Positions 6,646 through 9,441 of a stretch of 10,055 nucleotides of DNA are shown here, in pieces. Location: assembly GCA_031263835.1 (NCBI GenBank), contig JAISEZ010000056.1:1-10055 (forward strand), written 5' to 3'. The notes beneath the pieces were generated by a model that was not told the origin of the DNA, ran no database searches, and saw only the letters and a program-made list of their open reading frames with translations. The position numbers were made by a program, and so were the translations under genes. Within the stretch, counting starts at the first letter, position 1. Every line of letters starts with the position of its first letter. This DNA is from Tannerella sp. (GTDB taxonomy: Bacteria; Bacteroidota; Bacteroidia; Bacteroidales; Tannerellaceae).

Positions 6646-6654
6646 TTATTGATG

Positions 6655-6776
6655 CGAATCGGTAAAATAGTAGATAGTAGTTAGTAGAATGGTAGCGCAG
6701 GTTCGCCGTACGGCAATCGGGCTTTGTGTATGAAACTCTACTGACTGCTAACTACTATCTACTAACTGCCGATTCG
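6655..6776. repeat. Element C: inverted repeat with conserved core
   Basis: Outer arms CGAATCGG (6655-6662) and CCGATTCG (6769-6776) pair perfectly. Inner arms TAGTAGATAGTAGTTAG (6668-6684) and its exact complement (6748-6764) pair over 17 bp. Between them lies an asymmetric core, 6688-6736, containing GGTTCGC (6700-6706) and the palindrome GCCGTACGGC (6705-6714). The core recurs in inverted orientation in element D. The element separates the ACT gene from the bamD promoter. It may end the upstream mRNA, but no T-tract follows the stem. Confidence 0.88.
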
Positions 6777-6819
6777 AATTATTAACGTTATACATGGTGG
6801 CAGTTTGAGCGGGAAGCAT

Positions 6820-6827
6820 TACCTTTG
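6820..6827 (+). promoter_or_regulatory. Predicted -7 box upstream of bamD
   Basis: TACCTTTG matches TAnnTTTG exactly. The -33 position 19 nt upstream reads TGG (6798-6800), a weak match; TTTG at 6804-6807 is too close. The leader before the ATG at 6846 would be only about 12 nt. Confidence 0.55.
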
Positions 6828-6845
6828 CCGCCTAAAATCAGGTAA

Positions 6846-7652
6846 ATGAAAAAGGTTGTATTTTTAGGAATAGCGATTTTGTTGTGTGCCTCATGCGGCG
6901 AATACAACAGAATCTTGAAAAGTACAGACTATGAATTGAAGTATTCGTATGCCAAGAAATATTTCAACCAGAAGAAATACACCAAGTCGGCAACGCTTCT
7001 GGAAGAAGTAGTCACGCTCTTCAGAGGCACGTCCTATGCGGAGGAATCGCTGTACCTGCTGGCACAGAGTTATTACGGGCAGAAGGATTACCAGACGGCA
7101 GCGAATTATTTCGAGACTTATTACAACTCCTACCCGAAGGGCGAGTACACGGAACTGGCGCGTTTCTATTCCGGCTACGGGCTGTATCTTGATTCGGCCG
7201 ACCCGCGCCTGGACCAGGGACAGACCTACAAGGCCATCGCGCAGCTGGAGCTTTACATGGAATACTATCCCCAGAGCGAACGGGCGAAGCAGGCGCAGGA
7301 AATCCTGTTTGAACTGCAGGAAAAGCTGGCATATAAGGAACTGATAAGTACGCAGCTGTACTATAATCTGGGAACTTACATGGGTAACAATTACCGCGCC
7401 TGCGTAATCACCGCCGACAATGCGCTGAAGGATTATCCGTACTCCAAATACCGCGAGGAATTTATTCTGCTGAAAATAAAAGCGAAATACGAACTGGCGC
7501 TGGTGAGTGTGGAAGACCGTCTGCAAGGCCGTTACCGCGATGTGGTAGATGAGTACTACAATTATGTCAATGAATTTCCGGAAGGAAAACATACCCGGCA
7601 AATCAAGAAATATTTTGACTATGCCAACAAGCGAATAAGTAGAAATTATTAA
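6846..7652 (+). CDS. bamD: Outer membrane protein assembly factor BamD (lipoprotein)
   Basis: BamD is the essential lipoprotein partner of BamA in the complex that inserts beta-barrel proteins into the outer membrane, acting on the periplasmic side. The 268-residue product has a short signal peptide ending C-A-S-C, with C17 as the predicted lipidated cysteine; the cysteine at -3 is not the usual lipobox residue. The mature part is almost wholly helical with TPR-like repeats rich in Tyr, for example KYFNQKKYTKSATLLEEVV (about 38-56), SLYLLAQSYYGQKDYQTAANYF (about 68-89) and LELYMEYYPQSERAKQAQEIL (about 133-153), the BamD/YfiO pattern. Length fits the family. It has its own promoter box and is followed after 10 bp by rpoZ, a pairing typical of Bacteroidales, so both are probably on one mRNA. 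Confidence 0.92.
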   Translation: MKKVVFLGIAILLCASCGEYNRILKSTDYELKYSYAKKYFNQKKYTKSATLLEEVVTLFRGTSYAEESLYLLAQSYYGQKDYQTAANYFETYYNSYPKGEYTELARFYSGYGLYLDSADPRLDQGQTYKAIAQLELYMEYYPQSERAKQAQEILFELQEKLAYKELISTQLYYNLGTYMGNNYRACVITADNALKDYPYSKYREEFILLKIKAKYELALVSVEDRLQGRYRDVVDEYYNYVNEFPEGKHTRQIKKYFDYANKRISRNY

Positions 7653-7662
7653 GATATAAAGT

Positions 7663-7995
7663 ATGGATTATCGTAGATCGAAAGCACCGACCACCACGGT
7701 CACGCGCGACATGCTGAAGCTGTGCCGCGATACGGGAAATGTTTATGAAACCCTGATGGTTATTGCCAAACGCGCCAACCAGATTTCTTCGGAAATAAAG
7801 CATGACCTGGAGAAGAAACTGCAGGAATTTGCGTTCTATAATGACAATCTGGAGGAAGTGTTTGAAAACAGGGAACAGATTGAAATTTCCCGTTATTATG
7901 AGAAATTGCCGAAACCCACGCTCATTGCGGCGCAGGAATATGAAAACGGCAAGATTTATTACCGGAATCCCTTAAAGGAAAAAAGCAACCTTTAA
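7663..7995 (+). CDS. rpoZ: DNA-directed RNA polymerase omega subunit, Bacteroidetes type
   Basis: This 110-residue protein resembles the divergent omega subunit of Bacteroidetes, which helps fold and hold the beta-prime subunit. The omega-like features are NVYETLMVIAKRANQIS (26-42), corresponding to the conserved helix with the A-x-R-A-x-Q-I core, and KPTLIAAQEYENGKI (84-98), corresponding to the KPT..A..E...GKI segment. It lacks a signal peptide and is charged, as expected for a cytosolic protein. It starts 10 bp after bamD and ends before a hairpin terminator at 8020-8051. The assignment rests on the two motifs and the neighbourhood; sequence divergence is high in this family. Confidence 0.82.
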   Translation: MDYRRSKAPTTTVTRDMLKLCRDTGNVYETLMVIAKRANQISSEIKHDLEKKLQEFAFYNDNLEEVFENREQIEISRYYEKLPKPTLIAAQEYENGKIYYRNPLKEKSNL

Positions 7996-8019
7996 GCCGT
8001 TCATGCCTTACTAACCACG

Positions 8020-8060
8020 GAAAGGCGGGACTTTTCGCAGGCCGGCCTTTCTCACTTTAA
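8020..8060 (+). terminator. Putative terminator after rpoZ
   Basis: GAAAGGC (8020-8026) pairs with GCCTTTC (8045-8051), extended past one mismatch by GG/CC. The tail CTCACTTTAA is only moderately T-rich. The sequence resembles the terminator at 4710-4748, including CCTTTCTC on the right side. It may only partly separate rpoZ from the DUF4293 gene, which has no clear TAnnTTTG box of its own. Confidence 0.6.
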
Positions 8061-8075
8061 CAGACAAGTACAATT

Positions 8076-8534
8076 ATGATACAGCGCATACAAACCGTCT
8101 ATTTGTTGCTGGTGGTCGCGGCCATGACCGCCGTGCTTTTCCTGCCGCTGGCCACCGTGCAGGCAGGGGGAGTTTCCTATACGTACGACGTGCTGGGCAT
8201 GCACACGGCGACCGTTCCCCCGGAACTGACCCATCCGGCATGGGCATTGTGCGCCCTGTCCGCGGTGACCGTACTGCTTGCGCTGGCATCCGTTTTCCTG
8301 TACAGGAAACGGATGCGCCAGATTCGCCTCTGCATCTTCAACGCCGTGCTGCTGGTCGGGTTTTATGCGATATTCGCTTTTTTCCTCTGGAACCTGTCCG
8401 CACAGTCCGATTTTCATTTCAGCGTACGTTTTGCCCTCTCACTGCCGTTAGTCAGTTTGATTCTGAATTATCTGGCTATCCGCAATATCGGAGCGGACGA
8501 AGTGCTTGTCCGCTCGCTGAACCGTCTAAGATAG
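8076..8534 (+). CDS. DUF4293 family integral membrane protein
   Basis: This 152-residue protein of unknown function has four predicted membrane spans, about residues 7-29, 55-76, 83-105 and 116-136, with a basic loop YRKRMRQIR between spans 2 and 3 that should face the cytosol. The opening MIQRIQTVYLLL and overall size are typical of the DUF4293 family, which is found in Bacteroidetes next to bamD and rpoZ. Between spans 1 and 2 is a polar loop, residues about 30-54, probably periplasmic. No catalytic motif is seen. The gene lies 24 bp after the rpoZ terminator stem and 29 bp before mtgA, which suggests co-transcription with mtgA. A role in the envelope is plausible from the neighbours only. 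Confidence 0.8.
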   Translation: MIQRIQTVYLLLVVAAMTAVLFLPLATVQAGGVSYTYDVLGMHTATVPPELTHPAWALCALSAVTVLLALASVFLYRKRMRQIRLCIFNAVLLVGFYAIFAFFLWNLSAQSDFHFSVRFALSLPLVSLILNYLAIRNIGADEVLVRSLNRLR

Positions 8535-8563
8535 CCGTACCGTCATGAAAAGGGTTTCTTCGT

Positions 8564-9277
8564 ATGAAAACCGTCAAACGTATTTTCATCCTGTGCCGGA
8601 ATCTGCTCCTTTTGCTGGTTGCATCCGCCATCCTCGCGGTAGTGATATATAAATATGTACCCGTTTATTACACCCCGCTCATGTTTATTCGCCTGTGCGA
8701 GAAAGACGGAGCCGGCGGAATCAGTCATCACTGGACGCCCATAGGGCAAATATCCCAGTCGACGGTGCAGGCCGTAGTGGCGTCGGAAGACAATCTTTTT
8801 ATGGAACATCACGGTTTCGACCGCAAGCAAATCGACCGGGCAATTGAGGAAGCGAAAAATGGCCGCCGTCTGCGCGGCGCCAGTACGATTTCGCAGCAGA
8901 CCGCCAAAAACGTATTCCTGTGGCCGGGAAGAAGCTATTTGCGGAAGGGACTGGAAGCCTGTTTCACCCTGCTAATCGAATGGATTTGGGGCAAGGAGCG
9001 TATCATGGAAGTGTATCTCAATTCCATTGAGATGGGGACAGGCATCTACGGCGTGGAAGCGGCTTCCCTGGCGTATTTCGAAAAACGGGCATACGAACTT
9101 ACGCCGGAGGAAAGCGCTCTGCTGGCGATTTCCCTCCCCGCGCCACGAAAAATGAACCCGAAACGGGTATCGGCCTACATGCAGGGGCGGCAACGCCATA
9201 TCCTTTCGCTGATGAAAAAGATAAAACCCGTCAACATGGGATACCGTTACCCGGGAAGCTCTTATAGTTCCTATTAA
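8564..9277 (+). CDS. mtgA: Monofunctional biosynthetic peptidoglycan transglycosylase
   Basis: MtgA polymerises lipid II into glycan strands on the outer face of the inner membrane. The 237-residue product has one N-terminal membrane anchor (about 10-30) and a family 51 glycosyltransferase domain. The first catalytic glutamate is E75 in SEDNLFMEHHGFD (74-86). GASTISQQ (105-112) with N116 forms the second motif. E131 in RKGLEACF is the likely second glutamate, matching E290 of E. coli PBP1b. KERIMEVYLNSIEMG (144-158) gives the third motif. There is no transpeptidase domain, so it is not a class A PBP. The start at 8564 gives a normal short cytosolic tail; the ATG at 8545 is out of frame. Element D begins 3 bp after its stop. 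Confidence 0.95.
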   Translation: MKTVKRIFILCRNLLLLLVASAILAVVIYKYVPVYYTPLMFIRLCEKDGAGGISHHWTPIGQISQSTVQAVVASEDNLFMEHHGFDRKQIDRAIEEAKNGRRLRGASTISQQTAKNVFLWPGRSYLRKGLEACFTLLIEWIWGKERIMEVYLNSIEMGTGIYGVEAASLAYFEKRAYELTPEESALLAISLPAPRKMNPKRVSAYMQGRQRHILSLMKKIKPVNMGYRYPGSSYSSY

Positions 9278-9280
9278 TGA

Positions 9281-9426
9281 GAATCAGTAGTTAGTAGTCA
9301 GTAGTTAGTAGTTAGTAGATGATAGAATAAAGTCACGGTTTCATACACAAAACCCGATTGCCGCACGGCGAACCTGCCCGCTGCCATTCTACTAACTACT
9401 GACTACTAACTACTAACTACTGATTC
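9281..9426. repeat. Element D: inverted repeat with conserved core
   Basis: Arms of 38 bp (9281-9318 and 9389-9426) are complementary at 36 positions. Each is GAATCAG-TAG followed by four 7-mers, TTAGTAG or TCAGTAG. The only difference between arms is which 7-mer carries TCAGTAG. The 70-nt interior includes the core 9338-9388, the reverse complement of the element C core with about 46 of 49 positions identical plus a 2-nt insertion; it includes GCGAACC (9368-9374). The element fills nearly the whole mtgA-lipB gap and ends 15 bp before the lipB ATG. Confidence 0.9.
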
Positions 9427-9441
9427 ACATAATTGATTGAT

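Follow-up and report, generated by a model that had tools for sequence, protein, structure and literature searches.

The window analysed here is a stretch of 10,055 nucleotides, contig JAISEZ010000056.1 of the Tannerella sp. assembly GCA_031263835.1 (G000 in our numbering, the window being its contig C211), and we describe two palindromic elements that occupy two of its intergenic gaps. Following the putative gene names of the first-pass annotation, gap 1 separates an ACT-domain gene from bamD, and gap 2 separates mtgA from lipB. The genome (hereafter the own genome) comprises 2.05 Mb in 331 contigs and is estimated to be 63% complete. For the RpoZ-like protein encoded at positions 7663-7995, the nearest named relative is the metagenome-assembled genome (MAG) Tannerella sp. 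Im510_bin41, with 93% identity; MAGs such as this one presumably originate from termite guts.

Element 1 spans 126 bp (6653..6778, forward strand) between the terminal inverted repeats (TIRs) TGCGAATCGG and CCGATTCGAA, and element 2 spans 152 bp (9278..9429, reverse strand) between TGAGAATCAG and CTGATTCACA; the TIRs of both are of the form TGCGAATCRG. An inverted-repeat search confirmed that at both sites a core lies between inverted arms, which consist of tandem AGTAGNN heptamers and occupy, on the forward strand, 6668..6687 (left) and 6745..6767 (right) in element 1, and 9286..9318 (left) and 9389..9423 (right) in element 2. The cores, here called core A, lie at 6688..6736 on the forward strand (copy 1) and at 9338..9388 on the reverse strand (copy 2). 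Local alignment of copy 1 with the reverse complement of 9338-9388 reproduced the similarity that had drawn the attention of the first-pass annotation (46 identical positions, 3 mismatches and a single gap of 2 nt). Its score was 76, whereas 50 mononucleotide shuffles of the window, searched on both strands, never scored above 28. The arms and the outer ends, which read ATGYGAATCRG in both copies, can be aligned beyond the core as well. Neither element contains an open reading frame (ORF) of at least 80 aa, and hence neither carries a transposase gene. Element 1 is flanked by TTATTGA (6646..6652) and TTATTAA (6779..6785), and element 2 by CTATTAA (9271..9277), which includes the mtgA stop codon, and TAATTGA (9430..9436), all given on the forward strand.

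In relatives, both gaps lack the repeat. Gap 1 carried neither the heptamer pair nor the end motif in any of 29 same-genus loci (L089-L117), and it measured 57-124 bp there as against 203 bp in the window. The repeat was also absent from gap 2 in all 11 same-genus loci in which both mtgA and lipB were found; eight of these gaps were 12-86 bp long, compared with 167 bp in the window, and those of L102-L104, which were 155-161 bp long when measured from where the mtgA match stops, did not hold the repeat either. Two named records (L118 and L119), possibly the same genomes as G004 and G063, agree on the empty gaps. In near relatives, gap 1 shows ATTATTAACG once, where the window reads TTATTGA, element, TTATTAA. 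The single TTATTAA of the relatives, set against the TTATTGA/TTATTAA pair around element 1, indicates a 7-bp target duplication with one later change. In a test of flank colinearity, 80 clusters of at least 25 bp in the own genome were compared with the sequence fetched from relatives; eight were colinear on both flanks in a relative, and the repeat was present there in none of the eight. At L073, G004 has TTATTGA once, versus TTATTGT and TTATTGA around the element, and L033 is similar, with one end eroded.

The 7-bp duplication is a property of the family. Across 30 TIR-bounded heptamer elements, flank identity at length 7 was 0.595 versus 0.507 under permuted pairing (z 3.8), and among lengths 3-11 this was the only one to depart from permuted pairing, the next highest z being 1.2. 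The flanking 7-mers matched at six or seven of seven positions in 10 of the 30 elements (2.8 elements on average when permuted, and none of 5000 permutations reached this count). Their commonest bases spell TTATTAA on the right and T-G/T-ATTAA on the left. When 95 pairs were taken under looser rules, z was 5.8 at length 7, but lengths 3 to 6, 10 and 11 were raised as well (z between 2.8 and 3.7), so that we do not rely on this set. Of the features listed for prokaryotic miniature inverted-repeat transposable elements (MITEs) in the accessible part of PMC10969869, several are found here: both elements are shorter than 500 bp and lack a transposase gene, and TIRs, a target-site duplication (in the family and at gap 1, weak at gap 2), multiple copies and empty sites in relatives are present. 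The MITE-like dispersed mobile repeat put forward in the first-pass annotation is supported, as are the empty sites that it had proposed to look for.

The core was searched in the own genome and 60 relatives at E<=0.001. The 72-bp core region matched 15 places in the own genome, one in the congener G028 and none in the 59 other relatives, as expected of a dispersed repeat. With the 118-bp region of element 1, 127 matching places were obtained in the own genome at E<=10, many of them arm-only. The end motif TGCGAATCRGYAG has 114 exact sites in the own genome versus 0 for its reversed control, and the arm pattern AGTAGTTAGTAGNNAGTAG occurs 204 times. Elsewhere, TGCGAATCRGYAG was detected in 13 of 40 other same-genus genomes, G023 (35) and G034 (19) holding most TIR matches after the own genome, and in several of the 13 the single match is no more than the reversed control yields. 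Of 36 other same-genus genomes, 7 have the arm pattern, and it is missing from all 24 genomes searched from other families of the order. One degenerate exact pattern for core A hit 0 stretches in GTDB genome contigs, a collection from which the window's own genome is possibly excluded. We read 103 clusters, of which 22 are lone 12-13-bp motif matches, mostly due to chance. One of 47 two-arm elements lies mostly within an open frame of at least 110 codons.

The same ends and arms that enclose core A also enclose core B, a sequence of ~125 bp, and at least two fillings exist; the same ends bound heptamer-free elements as well. By eye, cores A and B have only short motifs in common, such as ATRYACAAAAYC. 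The constant part of the family is thus the ends and mostly the arms, whereas the core is a variable, exchangeable filling, which is the opposite of what the first-pass annotation inferred when it took the core for the part that moves or is selected. One may still propose that the core moves on its own and entered heptamer palindromes that were already there, given that identical arms enclose either core A or core B at the same position and that heptamer arrays occur without the TIR in G003 and G024. Nevertheless, the lone core-A copy in G028 is flanked by these arms and this TIR in degenerate form, the relatives lack the whole element in gap 1 and not merely the core, and mixed elements (e.g., L011 and L012) are explicable by template switching too, so that we regard an independent core as very unlikely. 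Separately, we noticed a third dispersed repeat at L216, L219 and L281 and at the G024 loci L064 and L082. Its ends are similar to ATGCACAAAACCATGCCGCGTGCAGTATA, it is in many cases joined to the heptamer arms, and its motif is similar to one found within core A.

A candidate for the kind of parent was found in the congener G023, in which locus L336 is one complete insertion sequence (IS) of 1063 bp with the ends TGCGAATCAGTATTT...CAACTACTGATTCGCA and the flanks TTATTCA/TTATTAA. Its TIR is the same as that of elements 1 and 2, and its 7-bp flanks agree at six of seven positions. The ORF encodes a 303-aa transposase, for which the best NCBIfam model is IS982 (NF033520, E 2.2e-33); the score of 115.9 bits is below the NCBIfam cut-off of 130, and the Pfam DDE_Tnp_1 score of 42.9 is above the cut-off of 23. 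In the accessible part of PMC7335449, the IS982 family has a length of 845-1282 bp and, when present, direct repeats (DRs) of 2-10 bp, ranges within which the length and 7-bp flanks of L336 lie. IS1187 (Bacteroides fragilis) and ISPrsp2 (Parabacteroides), for both of which a DR of 7 bp is listed there, are like L336 in having a length of ~1 kb and a transposase of ~300 aa. In the same source, the inverted repeats start with AC in 57 of 69 cases, CC in 5 and otherwise in 7. L336, which scores below the family cut-off, starts with TGCG rather than AC or CC, and because of this start we name it IS982-related and not a member of the family.

The L336-type transposase has matches in 12 of 41 same-genus genomes. 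G023 accounts for 22 of these matches and G034 for 18, the majority being short pieces. Every fetched copy of at least 46% identity with a readable end starts with TGCGAAT. No relatives of the transposase were found in viral contigs. Of the 33 end motifs listed for G023, no fewer than 14 lie ~100 bp from a contig end, as collapsed repeats do. Seven distinct ends of the own genome have TGCGAATCAGYAGTAGCRAC in common with a decayed IS of G001; autonomous ISs sharing the TIR are seen in congeners such as G023, G034 and G001, and not in the own, 63%-complete genome. Of the two findings that the first-pass annotation had set against a new repeat, a total of only two copies is not what we observed, with 15 core-A places, while a match to an IS end is, through the IS of the congener.

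The IS982 profile picked up 8 pieces in the own genome, one of them above the cut-off, and these were considered as the parent and rejected. Five of the pieces were fetched, and among the four of these that were read, L413 and L416 end in ACGTCAGTTCGACCTAAG, L412 ends in (AC)GTCAGTTCGACCTAAG and L414 shows no end. Since the 12-nt start equals that of ISPg3 (end start in Table 2 of PMC4596501, in the part accessible to us), these pieces are not the parent. L412 (C199), L413 (C64) and L416 (C113) are ISPg3-like IS pieces at or near contig edges. L344 (G024:C65) is an IS982-like IS that has TGCGAATTAAGGG at its ends and lies within an array of heptamers, with the flanks TTAGTAA/TTACTAA.

The AGTAGNN unit of the arms is also found in the parent TIR. 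The parent end reads TGCGAATC-AGTAGTT-GAAA, and an example from the own genome reads TGCGAATC-AGTAGTT-AGTAGTT-AGTAG. As AGTAGTT is already in the parent TIR, the arms look like foldback-style expanded ends, and tandem copying of the TIR unit would be their simplest origin. In G001, an element whose duplication matches at 7/7 carries nine heptamers on one side and just one AGTAGTA on the other. In the 47 two-arm elements of the own genome, the copy numbers of the left and right arms are uncorrelated (r 0.03), and of 116 comparisons between unit dinucleotides of equal rank, 56 agree (0.48 versus 0.50 when permuted). Each arm therefore changes alone, and exact stem pairing is not kept. We considered the heptamers as ladders of 7-bp duplication footprints, an idea dropped for the arms, as these are inverted and the duplications direct. 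Outside the ends, the flanks of L219, L223, L247 and L250 also contain heptamers in tandem, namely (TAATTCA)n and (TTAGTGA)n, whose unit length again equals that of the duplication.

The behaviour of the arms also bears on whether the elements are a conserved regulatory or small RNA, that is, a hairpin terminator or mRNA stabiliser with its structure under selection. Both copies are intergenic and have strong predicted folds (-59 and -76.5 kcal/mol with flanks). However, besides the independent variation of the arms, an alignment of core A from 13 of 16 known places gave 5 predicted pairs with 0 compensatory changes, which together leave an RNA role, and the small RNA segment suggested by the first-pass annotation, without covariation support. 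The window has no Rfam match at gathering score, and the repeat is absent from the gaps of relatives. An RNA function appears very improbable to us.

The other suggestion of the first-pass annotation was a repetitive extragenic palindromic (REP)-like unit. Elements like REPs or bacterial interspersed mosaic elements (BIMEs) would be moved by a Y1 transposase of the REP-associated tyrosine transposase (RAYT) type, with GTAG-rich hairpins as the substrate. The elements are indeed palindromic, intergenic and multicopy, their arms are rich in GTAG, and the genome contains one Y1_Tnp gene. Yet this gene, the sole one found in the incomplete own genome, is not flanked by the repeat: its neighbours are other repeats, and the heptamer pair is absent from its 2.2-kb locus. 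Y1_Tnp genes were present in 5 of 12 chosen genomes, the repeat flanks being read for the own gene only. The elements also have a 7-bp duplication, for which RAYT REPs are, to our knowledge, not known, and a DDE-type IS with the same termini exists in a congener. We thus judge the REP reading a poor fit and highly improbable. The GTAG REPs described in the accessible part of PMC3733652 are palindromic intergenic repeats with frequent GTAG, as here, but are 20-40 bp long with short stems and in many cases RAYT-linked, whereas the present elements are longer, TIR-bounded and duplication-flanked. The own RAYT-type gene (L057, G000:C287:399-743) is surrounded by palindromic repeats of the sequence CAATAGCACAGGGCAACGCCCTGTG, which are probably its own REPs and have a similar counterpart at other places of the genome, such as L014.

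We conclude, with a probability of about 0.86, that both gaps hold insertions of one MITE family moved by an IS982-related transposase, in which the arms are expanded TIR heptamers and the core is a filling. The insertion at gap 1, the TIRs, the 7-bp duplication within the family, the copy number and the congener IS that shares TIR and target are documented directly. A DDE transposase of the IS982-related kind would recognise the termini TGCGAATCRG...CYGATTCGCA in trans, and that of L336 or a close one may have moved these copies. The element would insert into an AT-rich, TTATTAA-like site, with 7 bp being duplicated. At each end separately, the inner part of the TIR (AGTAGTT in the parent) would have grown into tandem heptamers, probably through slippage, resulting in a foldback-type structure with the core as exchangeable filling. 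A parent IS of this lineage would be expected to have TGCGAATCAGTAG ends and an L336-type transposase.

Several observations weigh against this conclusion. Only two or three of the eight empty sites are clean enough to show the duplication, those of L029 and L031 hold other sequence, and the flanks of element 2 agree at only four of seven positions. A set of 56 strict TIR pairs gave a weak z of 2.2 at length 7 (11 match at six or seven of seven, versus 2.7), because chance pairs are included and target preference lifts the baseline. The L336-type transposase was not found in the own, 63%-complete genome at E<=1e-5, and the three IS982-like pieces there with a readable end carry another end, (AC)GTCAGTTCGA. 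A recognisable TIR lies within 16 bp on both sides in only 20 of the 47 two-arm elements, on one side in 15 and on neither in 12. Heptamer matches without this TIR occur in G003 (13) and G024 (45), so the heptamer arms are not strictly tied to TGCGAATC.

As to the neighbouring genes, element 1 lies upstream of TACCTTTG at 6820-6827, before bamD, a motif that we take to fit the Bacteroidetes -7 box, and element 2 ends 12 bp short of the lipB start. Effects of the elements on the expression of their neighbours are possible.

Among known systems, the accessible part of PMC4596501 describes BrickBuilt and MITE464/PgRS of Porphyromonas gingivalis, which are alike as intergenic Bacteroidales MITEs with internal tandem repeats and with TIRs resembling those of full-length host ISs, and which have several interiors behind similar TIRs, as here. 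Their repeats, however, are 23 and 41 nt long and lie between leader and tail, whereas here the unit is 7 nt and the arms are inverted; the related ISs listed there belong to the IS5 family, with duplications varying by copy rather than of 7 bp. Long, internally repetitive TIRs as seen here are described for Foldback and Galileo of Drosophila (PMC3573991, in the part accessible to us), but these are eukaryotic and the likeness is architectural only. As far as the literature searched goes, tandemly repeated inverted ends are unusual among bacterial MITEs, and none of its titles or abstract openings reports these elements.

The two odd repeats of the window are accordingly accounted for as members of one heavily amplified, intergenic MITE family from a single Tannerella-like lineage, for which an IS982-related IS can be named as the likely sort of parent. 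The elements are ordinary in kind, being MITEs of an IS982-related IS, and unusual in load and in architecture, with inverted ends expanded by heptamers around exchangeable cores. In such genomes, long intergenic hairpins should not be annotated as structured RNA without covariation. One may speculate, although we hold it improbable, that these are bacterial equivalents of foldback transposons, that the heptamer arrays are extra transposase-binding sites by which longer arms compete better for scarce transposase, that the unit and the duplication are both of 7 bp through the same spacing in the transposase complex, and that the arms form a cassette by which interchangeable cores are spread through the genome. 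The heptamer ends would offer a clean system for asking whether repeated ends help a non-autonomous element to capture transposase.

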